This document shows positions 3,998-17,942 of a stretch of 64,000 nucleotides of DNA, in pieces. Both the position numbers and the translations under genes were made by a program. The notes under the pieces are model-generated. The model saw nothing but the letters and a program-made list of their open reading frames with translations. It had not been told where the DNA came from and did no database searches. The DNA is from Pseudanabaena sp. Chao 1811 (GTDB lineage: Bacteria; Cyanobacteriota; Cyanobacteriia; Pseudanabaenales; Pseudanabaenaceae): NCBI RefSeq assembly GCF_027942295.1, contig NZ_CP101416.1, positions 2,024,001 to 2,088,000 on the forward strand. Direction: 5' to 3'. The stretch's first letter is position 1; the number at the start of each line of letters is the position of its first letter.

Positions 3998-4295
3998 TGA
4001 TTTTTTGTTGCTCTTGCCAAATTGCTTGACGCTCTTCTTGGAGGCTTTCTAGGAGTTCATCGATGGTGACATTACTTGCATTCATTAAGGATACAAAGCT
4101 TTCTGTCAGTGTTGTGACTTGGGGGATTCTGGGGACAATTACAGCAAATTCACCGATTTGGAGCAGGGTGAGGGTTTGTCCTTCTTGGGTTTGCAGGGTG
4201 TTTAGCACATCTTGAGGGATGCTAATTTGTCCTTCTTTTTGTACTTGTAGAGAGAAGACTTTCATGGAAGTATTTGCTGATTCGGTTAAGTTCAT
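3990..4295 (-). CDS. AbrB/MazE-type antitoxin-like DNA-binding protein
   Basis: A 101-residue protein. Residues 11-60 (MKVFSLQVQKEGQISIPQDV, then LNTLQTQEGQTLTLLQIGEFAVIVPR) fit the SpoVT/AbrB swapped-hairpin DNA-binding domain: a strand, the GQISIP turn and a second hairpin. The C-terminal half is helical and acidic (IDELLESLQEERQAIWQEQQ), as expected for the toxin-binding part of a VapB-like antitoxin. The start at 4295 is preferred because AGGAAG lies just upstream; an internal Met at residue 11 is an alternative. Its stop overlaps the start of a truncated PIN toxin, so it is probably an orphaned antitoxin. Confidence 0.75.
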   Translation of the reverse strand: MNLTESANTSMKVFSLQVQKEGQISIPQDVLNTLQTQEGQTLTLLQIGEFAVIVPRIPQVTTLTESFVSLMNASNVTIDELLESLQEERQAIWQEQQKISA

Positions 4296-4554
4296 CAGTC
4301 TTCCTGATTTATCTTTACAGTATAGTCTTGGATTTATGTGTTGATATTGCGATCGCCTTAATTGTAAAGTAATTGATTAGCAATTTCATCGGCTGTCGAA
4401 GCAGTGAGAATTTCCCATTATATCCTTACAATTCATCAGCTCGTTGTAGCATCTTCAACAGTTTTGTGTGGTTTTGCCAAATTGACACTCTGCTATTTTG
4501 ATAAACTTTGGCGATTAAACCCACATTCCGCTCGTAATGGAAGGGGAAAAACAA

Positions 4555-5166
4555 TTACGAAACAGTGACAGGGAGGAGATAGTAGCGTTGGCAGGAGGGA
4601 GAAAAGAAATTCAAAATGTGAATGCGAAGAGGAGACAAATTTGCAACTTGAGTCAGGTTCTGAAAAGAAACTAAATGAACCGCCATAAAACATTGAAAAA
4701 TCCAACGCAAAGTTGGCGAATTAGTGGGTTTACCCAATTGATTAGGAATAGTGTCTTGAGCGATAGCTAAGGCAAGTCTGAGTTGACGTTGAGCTAAATT
4801 ATAAACGAGCAAACACAGCACCATAATCATGCCCAAAGCTTCAATGCGTTTAGCGGACTTGAGAAAGACACTGGAAGTGAAAAACAAAGGATCTTTGAGG
4901 AAACGAAAACCACGCTCAGTGCCCTGCTGAGCCTTATATTGCCGTAAAGCGTCATCAGCCGTAAATTGTAAGGAATCAAGAATATTCGTGGCTAAAATAA
5001 ACCTGCCACAACGCTGACGCTGAGCCAAGATTTCAGAATCTATAGGAATCACGGTCGCCGTAACTCGATAACTAATGCTGATGGGTATCGCATCGGGTTG
5101 TGGCTTACCCTGACTTGGTGCATTACCGAATGAAGGCAAAACCAAAGGTAGCCCGTCCCTATAGCG
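4555..5166 (-). pseudogene. C-terminal remnant of an IS1634-like transposase
   Basis: About 203 codons open from a stop at 5167-5169 to 4555. The segment GTERGFRFLKDPLFFTSSVF, followed by KSAKRIEALGMIMVLCLLVYNLAQRQLR, is characteristic of the C-terminal part of IS1634-family transposases, including the late catalytic Glu region. The N-terminal two thirds are missing: the frame begins at RYRDGLPLVLPSFGNAP, directly beside a second, oppositely oriented transposase fragment. Inactive remnant. The downstream end towards 4490 shows no clear inverted repeat. Confidence 0.75.
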
Positions 5167-5825: not shown

Positions 5826-5902
5826 GCTAAGGGAGGATGGATGTATTTGCATCCTTTTTTGAAATGCAATAGGTGTTTTAACACCCATCCTTCCTTATTA
5901 GC
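5826..5902. repeat. Imperfect inverted repeat beside the dead transposases
   Basis: The outer arms GCTAAGGGAGGATGG and, at the right end, CCATCCTTCCTTATTAGC pair imperfectly. Two smaller hairpins (GGATG..CATCC and GGTGTTTTAACACC) lie inside. It sits between the IS630 fragment and the 3' end of sat. It could be a small non-autonomous element or a bidirectional terminator for the convergent sat gene. Confidence 0.5.
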
Positions 5903-5932
5903 TTAACATTGTCATGGCTAAGGTCTTTTTTG

Positions 5933-7135
5933 TTAGATTTCAAATCCTGTGGAAGCTTCCTCGATCGCCATTTTGTGCATTACTTTGGCAAGTTCTGCTG
6001 CCACTTCAGGACGGGAGAACTCAGGAGGAGGACATTCACCACGACGGAGCATCTCGCGGACTTTTGTACCAGAGAGATGGACTCGCTCTTCGGGTAAACT
6101 CGCACTAGTTTTAGTAGTTGCCATGCCACCAGTGCGTTTGCAATAGAAAGCATGTTCAAACATCAAAGGAATAATGCCTAGCTCACCAGTTTCAAATTCA
6201 TCGAAAATATACTGTGCGTCATAGGTTCCATAATAATCACCGACACCCGCATGATCACGACCAACAATGAAGTGAGTGCAACCATAGTTTTTACGAATCA
6301 ACGCATGGAAAATCGCTTCACGGGGACCTGCATAGCGCATTGCCGCAGGATTAATTGCTAAGGTGACACGATCTAGGGGGAAATAGTGTTCCAGCATGAT
6401 TTCATAGCAACGCATCCGCACGTCGGCAGGTACGTCGTCACTTTTAGTTGCACCCACTAGAGGATGTAGAAACAAACCATCAACAATTTCCAGCGCACAT
6501 TTTTGGATGTATTCATGGGCGCGGTGAATGGGGTTGCGGGTTTGAAAGCCAACTATAGTCTTCCAACCTTTTTGAATAAATAGTTCACGGGATTCCGCAG
6601 GATCGATTTGGTAGGTAGGAAAAAGTGGATGGGGACGACGTTCTAGTAGCCATACATCTCCAGCGAGATACACTTCACCTTGGTTATAAACAACCTTTAC
6701 CCCTGGGTGGCGATCTTCATTGGTGCGGTAAACATGAAGTGCTTCCTTGAGCTTATCGTACTTATATTTTTCGCTTAGTTCAAGCACACCGATAAAAATG
6801 CCATCGGGATCGTCGAGACGAACTAGGTTACCAACTGTCAAAGTATCTGCAACTTCAATGCTTACTGGTAAAGTGATCGGAATTGACCAAGGCAAACCAT
6901 TGGCAAGACGCATATTCATGACTACAGACTCATAGTCAGCTTTGCCCAAGAAACCTGTAAGGGGGCTAAAGCCGCCGATCGCAATTAGTTCTAGATCGGA
7001 GAGTGCGCGCTCAGTCAGTTGCACACGGGGCAAGTGGTCAGCTTTGCTATAAAAGACTTCTTTTTGTGCTTCTGAGGCAATGCGATTGATCAGTTGACCA
7101 CCATGCGGTGCGATGCTTTTGAGTTGTCGAGCCAT
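5933..7135 (-). CDS. sat: Sulfate adenylyltransferase (ATP sulfurylase)
   Basis: A 400-residue protein that activates sulfate with ATP to form adenosine 5'-phosphosulfate, the first step of assimilatory sulfate reduction in the cytoplasm. The nucleotide-binding motif [10 protein letters not shown] lies at residues 198-207 and GRDHAGVG at 292-299; the N-terminal PUA-like part includes [11 protein letters not shown]. Length matches the single-chain bacterial and archaeal-type enzyme with no APS-kinase domain attached. The C-terminal part carries [21 protein letters not shown], normal for the family. No other sulfur genes are adjacent. Very secure. Confidence 0.96.
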
Positions 7136-8301: not shown

Positions 8302-10761
8302 ATGGTATCTACTCCTCTCAAATTGTCTGAGCCAGACCTATCGAATAACTCAAGTAATGGGTCGATTAGTAGCTATGGTATTGCTCGTTCCACTGTTACA
8401 GGGACTCCTCTTAGTGCTGAAGAACTCCGTAAGATCGATGCCTACTGGCGTGCTTGTAATTATTTAGCGATCGGCATGATCTATCTGCGCGAAAATCCAC
8501 TTTTGCGTGAACCGTTGAAATCAGAACATGTCAAAAATCGTTTACTAGGACATTGGGGATCAAGTCCTGGTATGAGTTTTGTCTATACCCATCTCAATCG
8601 ATTGATCAAGAAATATGATCTCAATACGATCTTTCTTGCAGGTCCTGGACATGGCGCTCCCGGAATTTTAGGCCCTGTATATTTAGAGGGAACCTACTCT
8701 GAGGTTTATCACGATATTAGCGAAGATGAAGAAGGGCTAAAGCGTTTCTTCAAGCAGTTTTCATTCCCTGGGGGAATTGGTAGCCACTGTACACCTGAAA
8801 CCCCTGGTTCGATTCATGAAGGAGGCGAACTTGGTTACAGCGTTTCCCATGCCTATGGAACTGTCTTTGATAATCCCGACTTGATCTCTGTGGTGATGGT
8901 TGGTGATGGGGAGTCGGAAACTGGCCCCCTAGCTACAGCTTGGCATTCTAACAAGTTTATTAATCCGATTCGTGACGGTGCGGTACTCCCAATTCTGCAT
9001 TTGAACGGTTACAAGATTAATAACCCTACTGTGTTATCGCGGATTAGCCATGAAGAATTAGAAAGCCTATTTATTGGCTATGGCTATCAGCCCTACTTTG
9101 TAGAAGGTTCCGATCCTGAGTCAATGCACCAAGCGATCGCAGCAACCCTAGAGCATTGCATTAACGAAATTAGAAGCATCCAGCAAGAATCGCGGAGTAC
9201 AGGCATTCCTAAACGCGCCAAATTCCCCATGATCGTATTGCGGACTCCTAAGGGCTGGACGGGACCTGCGGAAGTTGATGGGCATAAGGTTGAGGGATTC
9301 TGGAGAGCGCACCAAGTGCCACTATCGGGAATGCATAATAATCCTGAGCATTTACAATTGCTATCGGACTGGATGTTCAGCTATAAACCTAATGAATTGT
9401 TTGATGAGTCAGGTAAGTTGCTCCCTGAACTGAAGGAACTTGCACCAAAAGGCGATCGCCGCATGAGTGCCAACCCGATCGCAAATGGTGGGTTACTCCG
9501 CCGTGCTTTGAGAATGCCCGATTTCCGCAACTATGGTGTAAATATCGCTAAGGCGGGGACAACTGAGGCAGAAAATACGAAACCCTTGGGTGTATTCCTG
9601 CGCGATGTGATGCGTCAAAACATGGATAATTTCCGTGTATTTGGACCCGATGAAAATACATCGAATAAACTGCAAGCCATTTACGAAGTCAGTAAGAAGT
9701 TCTGGATTGCAGAATATCTACCTGAAGATACTGATGGCGGCGAACTTGCTACCGATGGGCGGGTGATGGAAATTCTCAGCGAACATACCCTAGAGGGTTG
9801 GCTAGAGGGTTATCTATTAACAGGAAGACATGGATTCTTCTCAACCTATGAATCCTTTGTCCATGTTATTGACTCGATGATCAACCAGCATTGTAAATGG
9901 TTGGAAATCAGTAAAGATATTCCTTGGCGATCGCCGATCGCTTCTCTAAATTTGTTAATTACTTCCACAGTTTGGCGGCAGGATCACAATGGCTTTACCC
10001 ATCAAGACCCCGGTTTCTTGGATGTGGTAGTTAATAAGAGTGCTGAAGTGACGCGCATTTATTTACCACCTGATGTAAATACATTGCTATCGGTTGCCGA
10101 TCATTGCTTGCGTAGTACCGACTATGTGAATGTAATTGTTTCTGATAAGCAATCCCATTTGCAATTCTTGAGCATGGATGAGGCGATTAAGCATTGCACC
10201 AAGGGCTTAGGAATTTGGGACTGGGCAAGTAACGATCAAGGTACGGAACCTGATGTGGTGATGGTGGGCTGTGGTGATGTCCTCACTCAAGAGGCTCTAG
10301 CCGCTACGATCTTGCTATGGGAGCATTTCCCTGAGTTGAAGATTCGCTTTATTAATGTGGTGGATCTGTTCAAGTTACAGCCTGATACAGAGCATCCTCA
10401 TGGCTTAAGCGATCGCGATTTTGATTCGCTTTTCACCACAGACAAGCCGATTATTTTCAACTTCCACGGCTATCCTTGGTTGATTCACCGTCTCGCCTAT
10501 CGCCGCACTAATCACAAAAACCTCCATGTGCGCGGTTACAAAGAGAAGGGCAATATCAACACGCCTTTGGAGTTGGCGATTAATAATCAAGTTGACCGCT
10601 TTAGTCTAGCGATTGATGTGATTGATCGCGTGCCTAAATTGCAAAATATTGGCGCTCATGCGAAGCAGAACTTACTCGATCAGCAAATCGAATGTCGTCA
10701 ATATGCCTACGAGCATGGTATTGATAAGCCTGAAATTGTAAACTGGCGTTATCCTCATTAA
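8302..10761 (+). CDS. xfp: Xylulose-5-phosphate/fructose-6-phosphate phosphoketolase
   Basis: An 819-residue thiamine-diphosphate enzyme that splits xylulose 5-phosphate (and often fructose 6-phosphate) with phosphate into acetyl phosphate and a shorter sugar phosphate, giving a carbon-saving route to acetyl-CoA. Family motifs visible: GHWGSSPG (residues 83-90), GPGHGAPG (114-121), the ThDP-binding [11 protein letters not shown] (about 207-217), and [14 protein letters not shown] in the pyrimidine domain. Length is normal. A histidine phosphatase follows 50 bp downstream on the same strand, but a 14-bp-arm palindrome sits in between, so co-transcription is uncertain. Assignment is secure; substrate preference cannot be read from sequence. 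Confidence 0.95.
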
Positions 10762-10810: not shown

Positions 10811-11449
10811 ATGAGCTTAAAATTATATCTACTCCGTCATGGCGAAACTGTCTATAGTCGCACTGGTGGCTATTGTGGCGATCTTGATCCTGATTTAACT
10901 GAAAATGGCGAGAAAATGGCAACAGCCTTTGCCAATGCCCATAAAGCGATCGCATGGGATGCCGTGTTTGTTAGCCCAATGAAACGCACGATCGCGACAG
11001 CTACACCTCTATGCCAAGCCGTTAACATAGAAATGCAATTTCGTGATGGCTTAAAAGAATTGCGCTATGGCAAATGGGAAGGATTAACTAATGAGTTTGT
11101 GAAAGAGAACTATAGCGAAGATTATCTGCGATGGCTAACGGAACCTGCATGGAATCCTCCTACAGGTGGTGAAACCGCTGTCCAACTTGCTAGCCGAGCT
11201 TCATTTGTAATTGCCGAAATCCAAGAGATGTATCCATCGGGAAACGTGTTAGTTGTTTCCCATAAGGCGACTATTCGCGTGATTCTCTGTAGTTTATTGG
11301 GAATCGATATGGGTCGATATCGCGATCGCATTGATGTTCCTGCTGCCTCACTCAGCATTGTCCAATTTGGCGCACTTGGTCCCATGCTCAAAGTTTTAGG
11401 CGATCGCAGTTTTATGGATGCTAACTTGCGATCGCTAGTTGGAACTTAA
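10811..11449 (+). CDS. Histidine phosphatase family protein (phosphoglycerate-mutase-like)
   Basis: A 212-residue cytoplasmic protein of the histidine phosphatase superfamily. The nucleophile motif LLRHGET lies at residues 7-13. The second Arg of the site is in SPMKRTIATA, the acid region is ELRYGKWEG, and the second catalytic His is in VLVVSHKATIR. This combination describes alpha-ribazole, sugar-phosphate or broad phosphatases as well as cofactor-dependent mutases, so the substrate is open. Placement after phosphoketolase could hint at a sugar phosphate, but that is inference. Confidence 0.85.
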   Translation: MSLKLYLLRHGETVYSRTGGYCGDLDPDLTENGEKMATAFANAHKAIAWDAVFVSPMKRTIATATPLCQAVNIEMQFRDGLKELRYGKWEGLTNEFVKENYSEDYLRWLTEPAWNPPTGGETAVQLASRASFVIAEIQEMYPSGNVLVVSHKATIRVILCSLLGIDMGRYRDRIDVPAASLSIVQFGALGPMLKVLGDRSFMDANLRSLVGT

Positions 11450-11453
11450 TCTT

Positions 11454-11496
11454 AAAGCGGTTTTTATTTTGCTGTAAACAAAATAAAAACCGCTTT
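11454..11496. terminator. Bidirectional terminator between the phosphatase gene and purL
   Basis: Arms 11454-11471 and 11479-11496 pair perfectly (18 bp, AAAGCGGTTTTTATTTTG on the left), with a 7-nt loop. The hairpin lies between two convergent genes and carries T-runs on both strands. Confidence 0.75.
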
Positions 11497-11507
11497 AGAT
11501 ATCACTT

Positions 11508-13835
11508 TTACAAAGTATGTCCCATCCGCTTTGGAATTGCTTCACTGAAGTTTTTCGTAATTTTAGAGAGAGAGACCGAGATCGCTTTTTCTCCTGCAAC
11601 AACAATCTCTAAATCGCAAGCAGCATCGCTTACATTACCAATATATTGCCAAGCATTACCTAGCTGACTGGTGAGATAAGCTTCCCATATAGAGCGATCG
11701 CTTTCTTTGATCGAAACAACAATCCGACTTGCACCTTCACCAAAGAGAAGTTGGGTGAGGTTTAACCCTTCAGGCAGAGATAGTTGAATCTGTGCAGTAA
11801 GTTTGCCAGAAATCGAGGATTCAGCGATCGCGATGGCAAGTCCACCTTCGGCACAATCATGGGCAGCTTGGATTAAGCCTTGGGCGATGCCTTGGCGACA
11901 GGCAAATTGCACTTTGCGCTCTAGCTCAAAATCCACAGGTTGTGGACGACCTGTGACTTCACCGATAACTGAGGCGAGATATTCTGAACCTGCGAGACTG
12001 GCGCGATCGCTACCGAGTAAATAAATGGCATCACCAACATTCTGCCAACCTTGTCCGACGACTTTGGAGACATCTTCCACTAAGCCAACCATGCCGATCA
12101 CAGGTGTGGGATAAATGGGCTGAGCGTTGCCTTCGGAGTCGATGGTTTCGTTATAAAGGGAGACATTACCGCCAGTCACAGGTGTAGACAATTCGCGGCA
12201 AGCATCGGCAATACCGCGACAAGCTTCGTGTAACTGCCAATAACCGATCGCATGTTCGGGACTGCCAAAGTTTAAATTATCGGTAACGGATAAAGGCTCA
12301 GAACCAACACAGGAGAGATTCCTAGCTGCCTCCGCAACGGCTAGTTTTGCGCCTTCATAGGGATCAAGATAGACATAACGGGCATTACAATCGACGGTAG
12401 CGGCAACACCCGCAAGGGAATCAATTTGGCATTGAGTAGAACTTACTTCTCCAGCACCAAAACCTTGACTGCGTAAACGAATTACCGCCGCATCAGCACC
12501 ACCGGGGAAGATCACTGTATTGTTTTGAACTTGATGATCGTATTGGCGATAGACCCATGCTTTAGAAGCGATCGCAGGAGTGTCAAGTAATTTCAGTAGA
12601 GCATCGTTAGGACTAATTTCTGGGAAAGAGGCGATCGCGGTTTTCTCATCCCACGCCCAAGCTTTCTTGGCATAGTCGGGCGTATCTGCTAGCTGACGAT
12701 GATAGATCGGTGTATTATCTGCCAAAGCTGTCGCAGGGATCTCCGCCGCAACTTCACCATGCCAGAGAATTCTGACAATCGGTTCCGCGAGAACTTCTCC
12801 CGCAACCACCGCATGAAGTCCCCAACGTTCAAAAATCTCAATTAGCTCTGCTTCTCTTCCCTTATGGGCAACAAATAGCATTCGCTCCTGAGATTCCGAA
12901 AGTAGATATTCGTAGGGAGTCATGCCCGATTCTCTGGCAGGAATCTTATCCAAATCTAGAACCACACCTACGCCACCTTTAGCTGCCATTTCCGAAGTAG
13001 AACAGGTCAAACCTGCTGCGCCCATATCCTGCGCGGCAACCACTGCACCAGTTTTGAAGGCTTCCAAACAAGCTTCCACTAGGGACTTTTCTAAAAAGGG
13101 ATCGCCCACTTGCACCGCAGGACGGCTTTGCTCGGATTTATCAGAAAGCTCGGCACTGGCGAAACTTGCGCCTTTCATGCCATCACGTCCAGTAGTAGAA
13201 CCCACGTAAACCACAGGATTGCCGACACCCGCAGCCCCAGATTTGACGATTTCCTTAGTTTCCATAATCCCGATCGCCATCGCATTCACAAGCGGATTAC
13301 GGTTATAAGCCTTATCAAAATAAACTTCACCGCCAACGGTGGGAACGCCAATACAGTTGCCATAGCCTGCGATACCGTTAACGATGCCATTGACACGACT
13401 CCGCACCCAAGGATCTGACAGTTCGCCAAAGCGCAGTGAGTTCAAAATGGCAACAGGACGCGCTCCCATCGTGAAAATATCGCGCAAAATACCACCCACG
13501 CCTGTCGCTGCGCCTTGGTATGGTTCGACTGCCGAAGGACGGTTATGGCTTTCAATCTTAAAACTAATCGCAATATCATCGGTAATCTTGACTACGCCCG
13601 CATTTTCCCCCGGTCCAACCAAAATGCGATCGCCTGTAGTGGGAAATTGCTTGAGCAAAGGTCGCGAATTTTTGTAGCAGCAATGCTCTGACCACATCAC
13701 GCCAAACATCCCCAATTCGGCTTTGTTGGGTTCACGACCAAGGCGATCGCAAATCATTTGATATTCGTCTAGGGTCAAACCTTCAGCTTTGATTTCGGCT
13801 GGGGAAAATTTGCGTGTTTGCTTGTCGGCGGTCAT
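11508..13835 (-). CDS. purL: Phosphoribosylformylglycinamidine synthase subunit PurL
   Basis: The large ATP-dependent subunit that converts FGAR to FGAM in purine synthesis, with PurS and PurQ as partners. Visible are the family's MWSEHCCYK near residue 50, [23 protein letters not shown], and the later [11 protein letters not shown] and HDCAEGGLA segments. The ATG at 13835 is chosen over an in-frame TTG at 13847 because the duplicated fragment at 17107-17274 also starts at this ATG ([11 protein letters not shown]). About 775 residues, normal for this short PurL type. Its first 146 bp exist a second time beyond a two-gene cassette, so the present start region may have arrived with that cassette. 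HIP1 sites are dense in the gene. Confidence 0.95.
13690..13835 (-). repeat. Left copy of the duplicated purL 5' segment
   Basis: This segment in frame with purL matches 17129-17274. I count three differences in the roughly 127 bp from GACCACATCACGCC onward. The first codons then diverge: the copy here has ADKQTRKF where the other has ANITTPKF. The two copies bracket the HEPN/ATPase cassette. Confidence 0.9.
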
Positions 13836-13903
13836 GGCTATGTGCAAAGAATTATATATCTCCTGCTAATTTTATAGTAATTGGGAGAATCCTATCTCAA
13901 CTT

Positions 13904-16675
13904 CTATAGTACATCCGTCCCCATGACTTTTCTTTTCAAGACCAATACACGAGGTCTAGCACCTGTCGCCAAGTTAAATCCTAACCCAGCACGAAAAATT
14001 TCTGGCATATAGTATCTTGCATCATCATTTCGAGCCTTATCTTCATATATAACTCCCATGATCTCAAGCATAGTTATAGTTTCAGTATCTAGTTTTAAGT
14101 CTTGCGCTTTAAATGGAATGATTTTTTGTTGCTGCGGATAGCTTGCAATAATTTCAACCCATTGTTTGAACGCAGGGTATTCGTCTTGTGCTTCCTCCAC
14201 TTTATCTTTACTGCAAGGATCTAAAGCTCTTCGTACTGATTGGGGTGGTAATAATCTAGTTGCTGACCATCTTTCAAACTGAACTTCACGAGAGTTTTCT
14301 ACTGTAATCTTCGCAGCATTAAATAAGAATCTAACAATATCTCTAGCTTGTAATCTACCATTGAAATCAGTTAAAGCTGCAAACACCCAACTTGCAGTTC
14401 TAGCCTCTTTGTCACCACCTAACTTTTCACCCCATAGCTTTTCTAGTTCCTGAAGTAACTGATCTCGTCCAAAACTATCTAACTGATCTTCACTAGTATC
14501 AAAAACTTCACCCTTAATGCAAATCCAATATACTAATTTTAAAAATGAATTAGCATCCCAAGAAAGATCATAGGAACGATATAAGCTTTCAAATTGACCA
14601 GAGTTTTGATTGAGTGCATATCTTAGAAAGTCACGGCGCAATAAAATAATCAAGCCCAGATTAGATTGCCTAACCTCTGACAGTTTATTATTGGGAATAT
14701 TTATCAAGGCCCTAAGAGCTATTTGCTGCTGGCGATTAAGAGCAATGTCTTGGAATATATCTTCTAGTCCATCTATCAGTAAGATAACCCGTGCATCTTT
14801 TTCTTTTAGATGTAAGTTTATCTTCTGTAAGGTAATATTCTGATCTTCTCCTTGTTCAACACCCAAGGCTTTGCTAATTTCAATAATCCAAAAGCGAGTC
14901 CATTCTAGTTCATCTAGATCTTCTTTTAATGCAAGTTGAATTCTTTCTTTATACTCAGACTCAAAAAAATCATCTGTTCTTAGGGCGTTCTTAACTTCTC
15001 TTCTAGAATCTTCAATAATTATTTTGGCATTATCTTTAAGATTATTAGACTGTAAAAAAGGGAAGATGTATGTATACGATAGGAATGGCAAGTCTTCTTT
15101 CAAAACATTATGAAGAAACTCCTCCCAGTATTTAAACCTTGATAGCTGAACATATATAAATGTTTTTCCTGCACCCTTTGCACCAATAGAAACCACTCTG
15201 GGTAATTCATCTCTGAAATTGTTTGCTAAATTTTTAAGTGGTTCTGTGACTAGTAAACTATCTCCTGTTCCATTTTCTGCATATTCATATTGTTGACAAA
15301 CATCTCTAAATCTTACTAAATCTTCAAATCTGCTAGTTCGTGACTCTGTTTTGTATACGGGCGTTGGGGTTAATTGTGTTGCTGCCCATTCTCTAGCAAA
15401 TTGGGCAATTTTCGAGTTAGATGATAACTTACTTGAAGCATCTTCCCAACTATTGACATATAAAAGTTCCTGTAAAAAATCGGTCTCTTGAATTTCTAGT
15501 CTTGTTTCATAAACACTAGCATCTGTAATAGCTGCATCCTGTCTATATGCATTTCTCAATCTCAATAAAATATTATAAAATTCAGGTAACTCCTTCATTT
15601 CAGAGGTTAGGAAACTGATAATCACCGTAGGATCATAGTAATTATTATTCTGCATCTCGCTATTTGTTTGAGATAATGCAGTACAACTTAACTGTTTCAA
15701 TACCAATTCTAACCCCGAAATAGACTGTGATGCAGCCGTAGTAACCAAGAAACGTTGAACTCTTGGATCAAAAATCAGAGGGCTAGATATTTCGCTCAGT
15801 CCAGCACGAAGATCAACCATGACATAATCTGCCCCCACAGACTTTCCTAACTCATAAATCGCATCACTAAAAGTCCAAACATTACCCAAACTTTTAGTAA
15901 GATTTTCAGGTAGTATAGGCGTATCTAGTAATTGATCATCGCTTAGACAGGCAGGTAAAAAATAACAGATTGACTTGCCGTTATGTTTTGGTGACCTTGA
16001 TTTTTTTACTTCTTTGGCAATGGTTTCTAGGGTTTCTTGTTTTGCTAAAGGAGAATAGTGATAGGCTTCAAGAAAGTCGAGAAATGAAATAGCTGGCTGC
16101 TGTTTCTCAGCACGATTCCAATAGGTCAGCCCAGGAGCTTCTAAGTCAGAATCTATGACTAAAACTGTAATTGGTTTATTAACTTCATCTGCACGTTTTA
16201 ACAGAGCAAATAGGTAGGCTACTAGATGCGTTGTCCTTCCGACTCCACCTTTGAATGAATAGAAAGCTACTAGCTTAGTCTTTGTCTCGTAGGGCTGTGG
16301 TAGAGGGATTTTAGGAGATGACTCAATTGTATCTGTCAAATCTTCACTCACATAGGCAATTTCTTCCCAGAATGGGCGGATCGGTCTTGATTCTTTCTGT
16401 TTGTCACCTTCAATCAAAAACTCTACTGGTAACGTGTTGTTTCCTAGATCTAGTTGAATAATCTGCTGATCGACCTGATACCATTCTTCACCAAACCATT
16501 TTTGCAATTCTGACTCTACAAACGACTGATCTTCCGCAGATATTAAGCTGATCTCTACGGCATCTGAAAAACAGTCAATACTATTAACGCCTTGAGGCAG
16601 AGATTTACCATAGGAGGTTTTTTTTCTGATTAATCTTCTTATATCAAGCCATGTTAAAAATTTTAATGATCTCAT
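13904..16675 (-). CDS. KGGVGR-type ParA-like ATPase fused to a second P-loop NTPase
   Basis: A 923-residue cytoplasmic protein. Residues 1-130 are unrecognised. Residues 135-330 form a MinD/ParA-like ATPase with the variant P-loop KGGVGRTT (142-149), VLVIDSDLEAPG (171-182) and VMVDLRAG (285-292). Residues 490-760 form a second NTPase with GAKGAGKT (498-505) and a Walker B ILLIDGLEDI (631-640), of the KAP/STAND or Sll1717-like kind. The C-terminal 160 residues may be winged-helix. It starts at ATG 16675 in a TAATG overlap with the HEPN-like gene, so translation is coupled. The gene is AT-rich and I see no HIP1 octamer in it. Such double-ATPase plus HEPN pairs suggest immunity by regulated RNA cleavage, but that role is inferred. 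Confidence 0.7.
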   Translation of the reverse strand: MRSLKFLTWLDIRRLIRKKTSYGKSLPQGVNSIDCFSDAVEISLISAEDQSFVESELQKWFGEEWYQVDQQIIQLDLGNNTLPVEFLIEGDKQKESRPIRPFWEEIAYVSEDLTDTIESSPKIPLPQPYETKTKLVAFYSFKGGVGRTTHLVAYLFALLKRADEVNKPITVLVIDSDLEAPGLTYWNRAEKQQPAISFLDFLEAYHYSPLAKQETLETIAKEVKKSRSPKHNGKSICYFLPACLSDDQLLDTPILPENLTKSLGNVWTFSDAIYELGKSVGADYVMVDLRAGLSEISSPLIFDPRVQRFLVTTAASQSISGLELVLKQLSCTALSQTNSEMQNNNYYDPTVIISFLTSEMKELPEFYNILLRLRNAYRQDAAITDASVYETRLEIQETDFLQELLYVNSWEDASSKLSSNSKIAQFAREWAATQLTPTPVYKTESRTSRFEDLVRFRDVCQQYEYAENGTGDSLLVTEPLKNLANNFRDELPRVVSIGAKGAGKTFIYVQLSRFKYWEEFLHNVLKEDLPFLSYTYIFPFLQSNNLKDNAKIIIEDSRREVKNALRTDDFFESEYKERIQLALKEDLDELEWTRFWIIEISKALGVEQGEDQNITLQKINLHLKEKDARVILLIDGLEDIFQDIALNRQQQIALRALINIPNNKLSEVRQSNLGLIILLRRDFLRYALNQNSGQFESLYRSYDLSWDANSFLKLVYWICIKGEVFDTSEDQLDSFGRDQLLQELEKLWGEKLGGDKEARTASWVFAALTDFNGRLQARDIVRFLFNAAKITVENSREVQFERWSATRLLPPQSVRRALDPCSKDKVEEAQDEYPAFKQWVEIIASYPQQQKIIPFKAQDLKLDTETITMLEIMGVIYEDKARNDDARYYMPEIFRAGLGFNLATGARPRVLVLKRKVMGTDVL

Positions 16676-17100
16676 TAATTTATATCCTGTTTAATCCATT
16701 CTGATATTTTGAGTAAATATCTTTCTAAATCACGATCTGTTGGATCATTAGCGTTGTTGCTACTAATAGCCTCGCCTCCGTAACGCCACATTTGATTGAT
16801 TTCACCTACAGATACTTCTCTCCTAGAAATTATTTTAATTTTGTTGGGAAGTCTAAGATTTTGTTCTACATGCAAATTGTCTAAGAGCCTATTAATATTG
16901 TGACCGCAGTCAATAATTTTTGGACAAGCTAATGTAGAATTTACCCTGTCTCTTTTCATTATTGATGCTTTCAATCCACATTCTATTGCATAAAATAATA
17001 ACAATCTGTGGGCATTGGTTTTAGTTTGGGCTAGTTCGTAAGCCTGAAAATTGTTTTTCCATGCTCTTTTCATTTCGCGATCACTGAAATGTATTGGCAT
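16675..17100 (-). CDS. HEPN-like small protein, partner of the downstream ATPase
   Basis: A 141-residue, mostly helical basic protein. Residues 31-50 (HRLLLFYAIECGLKASIMKR) resemble the long helix of HEPN domains, where a similar LLFYA-ECGLK pattern recurs. GHNINRLL (66-73) and MWRYGGEA (104-111) also fit HEPN-type small proteins; an ordinary RX4-6H RNase motif is not obvious. Its TAA overlaps the ATG of the 923-residue ATPase gene (TAATG), so it is the first gene of a two-gene unit. Its start lies only 6 bp from the truncated purL fragment, so transcription may be driven by the old purL promoter. HEPN assignment is by eye and moderate. Confidence 0.55.
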   Translation of the reverse strand: MPIHFSDREMKRAWKNNFQAYELAQTKTNAHRLLLFYAIECGLKASIMKRDRVNSTLACPKIIDCGHNINRLLDNLHVEQNLRLPNKIKIISRREVSVGEINQMWRYGGEAISSNNANDPTDRDLERYLLKISEWIKQDIN

Positions 17101-17106
17101 ATGTTT

Positions 17107-17274
17107 TTAAGCAGCACTTCTGAAATATGACCACATCACGCCAAACATTCCCAATTCGGCTTTGTTGGGTTCACGACCAAGGCGATCGCAAATCATTTGA
17201 TATTCGTCTAGGGTCAAACCCTCAGCTTTGATTTCGGCTGGGGAAAATTTGGGTGTGGTGATATTTGCGGTCAT
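17107..17274 (-). pseudogene. Truncated duplicate of the purL 5' end
   Basis: A 55-codon frame starting ATG at 17274, reading [19 protein letters not shown] and matching PurL up to GMFGVMWS. It then diverges to YFRSAA and stops at 17107. The break falls at the conserved MWSEHC motif. The fragment keeps the likely original purL upstream region. Together with the in-frame copy at 13690-13835 it brackets 3.2 kb of foreign-looking DNA, as expected if a circle carrying a purL 5' fragment had integrated by a single crossover, or if an element restores its target gene. Confidence 0.85.
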
Positions 17275-17422
17275 AGTTAATGCAAAAAATGTTTAGGCTG
17301 CTGCTGAGATTGCTTAGTGATTGCTCTTAGCAGCTATTAATCTAACATTTTAGTCGCTTAGTCGCAAAAAGCATAAAGAGACAGGAGCTTAATATGCAGA
17401 CTCCTTTCTCTTCTCAGAATAA

Positions 17423-17779
17423 TCAACTTCCCCAAATATAAATAGAGCCATTCTCCATCTTAAAAATTCTCGCACTTGTACCATCAGCTTGTTCTTCACC
17501 CCTTTGCTGATAGACGATACCACCACGATCATCGGTGTAGACATATGGGCGATCGCGTTTGGGTTGAAAACTATCCCTTACTCCATCTTCCCAAATAATA
17601 TCAATAAATCCTTGACGTATCGAAAATACACAGGGCATAGATACCTTGGCAAGGCTAGCTCCGTTCGGGAAGTATTGACAATAGGCTTGGATGCTATCAG
17701 CTCTTGCGGAAAGGGGAATTGCTAGGGGGATTGCGAATACTGCGATCGTCGAAATTATCCCTTTTAGAATAGTTTTCAT
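17423..17779 (-). CDS. Small secreted protein, unknown function
   Basis: A 118-residue protein starting at ATG 17779 (an in-frame TTG lies 9 bp upstream). A signal peptide is clear: KTILK, a hydrophobic stretch to about residue 24, then a cleavable site at SARADS. The mature part has two cysteines (AYCQYF and MPCVFS) that could form a disulfide, and a beta-rich body (GFIDIIWEDGVRDSF, YVYTDDRGGIVYQQ, ARIFKMENGSIYIWGS). This is a pattern common among small periplasmic cyanobacterial proteins of unknown role. No operon partner is visible. Confidence 0.6.
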   Translation of the reverse strand: MKTILKGIISTIAVFAIPLAIPLSARADSIQAYCQYFPNGASLAKVSMPCVFSIRQGFIDIIWEDGVRDSFQPKRDRPYVYTDDRGGIVYQQRGEEQADGTSARIFKMENGSIYIWGS

Positions 17780-17942
17780 AGTCTTCAATAATTTTGAATT
17801 TGAGCTTATGGATTCTAGAATATCTAGTTTATTCGTTACCCATGAGTGATTTATATCACCGAATATTTGAGATATTTTCCATGATCTTTGGGTGATATCA
17901 ATGTAAATCCAGTGCTATAATTCAGGCTAAGTCTTAAGCAAT

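Follow-up and report, generated by a model that had tools for sequence, protein, structure and literature searches.

Two overlapping genes in the window (the whole 64,000-nucleotide stretch of cyanobacterial DNA that was analysed) probably constitute an anti-phage defence module of two genes that was acquired horizontally and corresponds to the predicted system PDC-M28 in fused form (A + BC). A defence function is predicted from context, which strongly suggests it: a truncated purL copy lies beside the pair and purL remnants recur in the genus; the two genes stay together in homologous loci even where ATPase identity falls to about 31%; their presence is patchy in genus and phylum; relatives occupy the P4 int-psu and P2 gpQ-gpA slots, both described as defence hotspots in a published study (PMC9122126), or adjoin type II restriction-modification genes (L047, L049). 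The same reading draws on the kinship with PDC-M28, on the HEPN fold predicted for the small protein, and on phage-borne ATPase fragments that are under purifying selection. As a relative of an already predicted candidate family the pair is ordinary; what is new, and makes it notable, is the fusion, the location at purL and in P2/P4 elements, and a cyanophage family of ATPase fragments (Mic1 gp05).

Both open reading frames were present as the sequence-only reading had described them, with a common TAATG in which the overlap is one base:

16675..17100, minus strand: small gene, encoding a 141-aa protein with a predicted HEPN fold whose sequence fits the HEPN-T/AbiV type
13904..16675, minus strand: large gene, encoding a 923-aa fused ATPase with a KGGVGR module and a Sll1717/Cdc6-like module

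Insertion of the pair at purL

The strongest sign of insertion, overlooked in the sequence-only reading, is that the start of purL is repeated as a 152-nt direct repeat (91%) at 17128-17279 and 13689-13840. The features of the site are:

11508..13847, minus strand: intact purL, the insertion target
13689..13840, minus strand: second copy of the 152-nt direct repeat, at the start of intact purL
13841..13903, minus strand: 5' region that intact purL has in place of the native one, from which it differs
17107..17274, minus strand: truncated purL remnant with an open frame of 55 aa, which stops 6 nt short of the small gene
17128..17382, minus strand: native purL 5' UTR and start (first 49 codons), 94.9% identical to the uninterrupted purL of a relative, G021

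Since the pair lies between a truncated and an intact copy of purL, it is an insertion, and its foreign origin is supported. Intact purL was an equally good match to the G021 gene from a few codons in, and its 5' UTR and first codons differ. The native 5' region beside the remnant and the different one at the intact gene indicate that the native start was left behind and that purL was given a new start. Because the remnant ORF ends so close to the HEPN gene, the pair is probably transcribed from the captured purL promoter, and the remnant could act as its leader ORF. No integrase was seen at the purL insertions, and homology-assisted recombination is our guess at the route.

The same layout was observed in a decaying state in another genome of the genus (G017), with a purL remnant, a HEPN gene containing two stops and an ATPase gene cut short; this decayed pair occupies L056 152-1430, and its ATPase is broken by foreign sequence. 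Truncated purL 5' copies were also detected in G011, G024, G012 and G001, which brings the total to six genomes of the genus. Loci with such copies are:

L092 3659-6316
L093 2829-3784
L094 5036-8928
L096 1-2350

Recurring in this way across genomes, the remnants mark the start of purL as a recurrent insertion site in the genus. Their neighbours include a type IIG restriction-modification enzyme in G012 and a similar gene start in G001, Uma2 in G024 and G001, and an ATPase-led cassette in G011; restriction-type genes adjoin the remnants in 3/6 genomes. What makes the site interesting is that truncated 5' ends of the target gene are left behind again and again, with the intact gene kept and restriction-type cargo adjoining. 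Flanking direct repeats, which give the look of a duplicated gene, are not general among the homologous loci and were found only in the window and in L047, where a 482-bp piece of a restriction enzyme gene is duplicated (97%) at 4253-4734 and 9342-9822 and flanks the methyltransferase gene and the pair.

The small protein

The small protein had been called HEPN-like, and structural realignment of its AlphaFold2 model (pLDDT 83) bears out the fold: the 18 best entries were all HEPN-type (Z 9.1 to 4.4), with the first unrelated row at 3.8. The small protein is thus predicted to have a HEPN fold. Only the realignment was clear in this respect; a Foldseek search with the HEPN model was weak in the PDB and in viral models, and a sequence search against the PDB returned nothing useful (best match dethiobiotin synthetase, E 0.17).

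A role as an RNase effector of the ordinary HEPN kind was not supported, the Rx4-6H motif being missing from the C-terminal part (the last 40% of the protein) in 22/22 homologues. The invariant residues are E40, K44, H67, W105, R106 and Y107, and the polar ones (E40, K44, H67, R106 and Y107) have counterparts in PDC-M28A-like proteins. HEPN-T members without the motif histidine keep a different one, and in AbiV that histidine is found at the same position (Anantharaman et al., PMC3710099). With a common fold, an alternative conserved histidine and no Rx4-6H, the small protein fits the HEPN-T (PF05168)/AbiV type by residue pattern. It differs from HEPN-T in that PF05168 matches only 2/22 members of its family, and weakly (best E 0.097), and in that the HEPN-T partner is a nucleotidyltransferase whereas the partner here is not.

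The large protein

Two different NTPase modules had been proposed for the large protein, and both were recovered, with KGGVGRTT at residues 142-149, GAKGAGKT at 498-505 and the Walker B of ILLIDGLEDI at 635-638:

15689..16279, minus strand: MinD/ParA-fold module, residues 133-329 (NF047398, E 2.1e-46, above cut-off; ParA/MinD structures, Z 15-19)
16232-16252, minus strand: KGGVGRT P-loop, within the MinD/ParA-fold module
14093..15196, minus strand: AAA module, residues 494-861 (NF047389, E 4.6e-18; Cdc6/Orc1 2qby, E 1.5e-4)
15161-15184, minus strand: Walker A GAKGAGKT of the AAA module
14762-14773, minus strand: Walker B DGLE of the AAA module

The NCBIfam models for the two modules, NF047398 (KGGVGR ATPase) and NF047389 (Sll1717 ATPase), name domains only, and the match of the AAA module to the latter scored 65.6 bits, below the cut-off of 75. 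In the comparison with STAND proteins nSTAND1 reached E 0.002, below cut-off, Cdc6/Orc1 was matched and no repeat array was seen. Walker A and Walker B of the AAA module are of normal form. Across 21 homologues KGGVGRT and DGLE do not vary, and neither do the lysine and glycines of the second Walker A. The KGGVGR module is alike in fold to the ParA/MinD partition ATPases, but their deviant Walker A, KGGxxGK(T/S), has a P-loop lysine, which an arginine replaces in every form of the large protein examined.

Relation to PDC-M28

PDC-M28 is a computed three-gene candidate of PADLOC (M28A/B/C) which, like the pair, combines a small HEPN-like protein, a KGGVGR ATPase and an Sll1717-type ATPase in one operon. 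Its B and C components are separate genes, whereas here they form one 923-aa ORF, and the sequences are far diverged. The large protein matched M28B (E 2.3e-15, with the best stretch over the P-loop region) and had no match to M28C at E<=1; the small protein had none to M28A. For the prophage homologue of the pair, a weak match to M28A (E 0.004), a match to M28B and one to M28C (2e-9) were obtained, and fused intermediates, for example L124, match all three models. Profile comparison of the small protein with M28A-like proteins gave a probability of 93.5 (E 2.2e-7), the E-x3-K, H and RY positions being common to both. A complete split set is present in the same genus (L117: A 1e-12, B 2e-68, C 7e-82). 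By sequence comparison the pair is best classed as a fused, divergent variant of PDC-M28, and is not filed as a strict member. The sequence-only reading had recognised no described system; this holds for the fused form, which is new, and not for the components, since the modules have NCBIfam models and the pair is related to a PADLOC candidate. In the literature searched, no discussion was found of 'KGGVGR' as a protein family, of 'Sll1717' or of 'PDC-M28'.

Linkage, distribution and genomic context

In nearly all of the homologous loci that were read, including those whose ATPase is only 31-34% identical, the small gene immediately precedes the ATPase gene (in L049 it is at 5872-6339, and the L048 family is near-identical). 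The proposed recurring, linked pair is therefore real, with decayed or incomplete exceptions only, such as L050, which has a broken ATPase and its small gene at another place in the stretch. An intact ATPase was found in 1/26 genomes of the genus, the window's own, and a decayed one in a second; the HEPN profile matches 21/386 genomes of the phylum. A housekeeping function for the pair was rejected because its presence is patchy even within the genus. The tree places the window pair beside other close cyanobacterial pairs, with the enterobacterial pairs branching next.

Among the close cyanobacterial loci, 13/17 have a gene on the same strand, often recG, 31-454 nt ahead of the pair; these upstream genes are mostly housekeeping genes and not obvious defence islands. 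The position just behind recG recurs in different cyanobacterial genera (L004, L005, L006, L038, L046).

The proposed defence context was supported at other loci. Type II restriction-modification genes stand next to the pair in L047 (control protein, REase, MTase) and L049 (BanI type). In E. coli the pair occurs in 11/5,426 complete genomes, and at the four loci read it lies in a P4-like satellite between the integrase gene (int) and psu, adjoining tRNA-Leu; the P4-borne pair in L115 spans 11235-14337. In the P2-like prophage L113 it lies between portal gpQ and replication gpA; the packaging genes of this prophage are 97% identical to those of a Klebsiella phage whose own gpQ-gpA slot holds other cargo, including a UvrD helicase. 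Rousset et al. (PMC9122126) found both slots to be reservoirs of anti-phage systems. PARIS uses the same slots and likewise joins an ATPase to a partner protein, but the protein families of hotspot systems such as PARIS differ from those of the pair. In E. coli 2018-01-1CC (L153 4431-7102) the ATPase is split into two reading frames.

A cyanophage family of ATPase fragments

Gp05 of Microcystis phage Mic1 (206 aa, L108:6031-6651) corresponds to a piece of the ATPase, residues 473-708 (41%, 4e-38). Relatives occur at the same place in four IMG/VR contigs (L109-L112), the L109 and L110 copies being identical, and among cellular sources of the family, the ATPases of G348 and other members of its genus come closest (up to 68%). 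The phage fragments are under purifying selection. From its sequence features, gp05 could well be an anti-defence decoy, a good reading of the family and a possible one.

That the family represents decaying relics of a captured host gene has a chance only a little short of even. Relics could account for the destroyed Walker A (GEDVAKKT, GEGVAENT, GADVAEYT), for the loss of a block of about 50 residues from the L109-L112 homologues, and for a dN/dS of 0.29-0.44 that is higher than that of the neighbouring genes (0.08-0.26). Against decay, however, the reading frame is open in all copies, the position is identical in all phages, Walker B is kept, and dN/dS is below 1 (Fisher P 1.5e-5 and 9e-5 for Mic1 gp05 against two relatives).

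Function of the pair

For the defence module favoured here, the HEPN protein and the ATPase would form one complex. Its Cdc6/STAND-like AAA module would sense an infection cue and assemble on ATP, and the KGGVGR module, with arginine in place of the P-loop lysine, would bind nucleotide and serve as a dimerisation switch whose hydrolysis is altered. On activation, the HEPN-T-type protein would stop growth, probably either by binding RNA or a nucleotide or by a cleavage that uses the alternative histidine H67. A possible cyanophage countermeasure is a piece of the AAA module with a dead Walker A, which would poison assembly. The full picture, a widespread machine of HEPN-T protein, KGGVGR switch and Cdc6-like AAA sensor in cyanobacteria and enterobacterial mobile elements, countered by a dedicated P-loop-dead cyanophage decoy, is tentative, and we lean somewhat against it being right in every part.

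If the defence reading is true, an anonymous database candidate becomes a testable system, whose E. coli copy in a known hotspot is open to direct phage test. The system would couple three parts: a MinD/ParA-type switch with an altered P-loop, an AAA sensor resembling replication initiators, and a HEPN protein that lacks the usual active site. The fragment carried by cyanophages would be a dominant-negative inhibitor produced by natural evolution, and would point to the assembly step. Against defence stand the missing canonical RNase motif, the status of PDC-M28 as itself a computed candidate, the mostly housekeeping genes ahead of 13/17 close cyanobacterial copies, and the small protein's lack of an M28A match. 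No phage challenge of any family member was found in the literature. None of the outcomes that the sequence-only reading had named as speaking against it (no HEPN fold, housekeeping homologues without the partner, a match to a chromosome-partition family) appeared.

It is unlikely that the pair is a toxin-antitoxin module, in which a ParA-type ATPase would be the antitoxin that restrains a HEPN toxin, the module being kept by addiction and not defence. Co-occurrence and mobile location fit such a module, and a dyad of this kind, the HEPN gene MAE_18760 adjoining a ParA/Soj ATPase gene as in the pair, was proposed as one in 2013 (PMC3710099). That HEPN protein, however, keeps Rx4-6H, and its ATPase gene, for which no AAA module is described, is in the antitoxin-gene position; here the motif is missing and the HEPN gene comes first. 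A 923-aa protein with two NTPase modules would also be an unusual antitoxin, and both genes decay together in G017. DUF499-HEPN systems are described in a BREX paper (PMC12839542), in which no mention of KGGVGR was found.

It is very improbable that the pair serves replicon maintenance or satellite biology, as a ParA/MinD- or Orc-like ATPase for partitioning or regulation together with a helper protein: module 1 has a ParA/MinD fold, module 2 resembles Cdc6/Orc1 and RefSeq names relatives 'ParA family protein', but all members have the P-loop arginine, presence is patchy, no parB-like partner was seen, and the pair is chromosomal with no close plasmid relative (plasmid searches gave weak partial matches for the ATPase modules and none for the small protein).

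Composition of the pair and the window

The pair is AT-rich, as had been noted, with a GC content of 36%, compared with 42% in the window and 49% in purL. It also lacks GCGATCGC, of which purL has 7 copies (at least six in the earlier count). This absence (0 observed against 5.3 expected, P about 0.005) is mildly unusual; the window has two other GCGATCGC-free gaps, of 3.4-4.3 kb, so that of the pair is not unique, and it carries little weight as evidence. Long gaps coincide with AT-rich stretches, for example the glycosyltransferase genes at 17.9-22 kb. Over the whole window GCGATCGC is about 200-fold over-represented (106 sites against 0.46 expected). Between the purL remnant and the glycosyltransferase genes, the window encodes a 121-aa protein with a signal-peptide-like start (17423-17788, minus strand).
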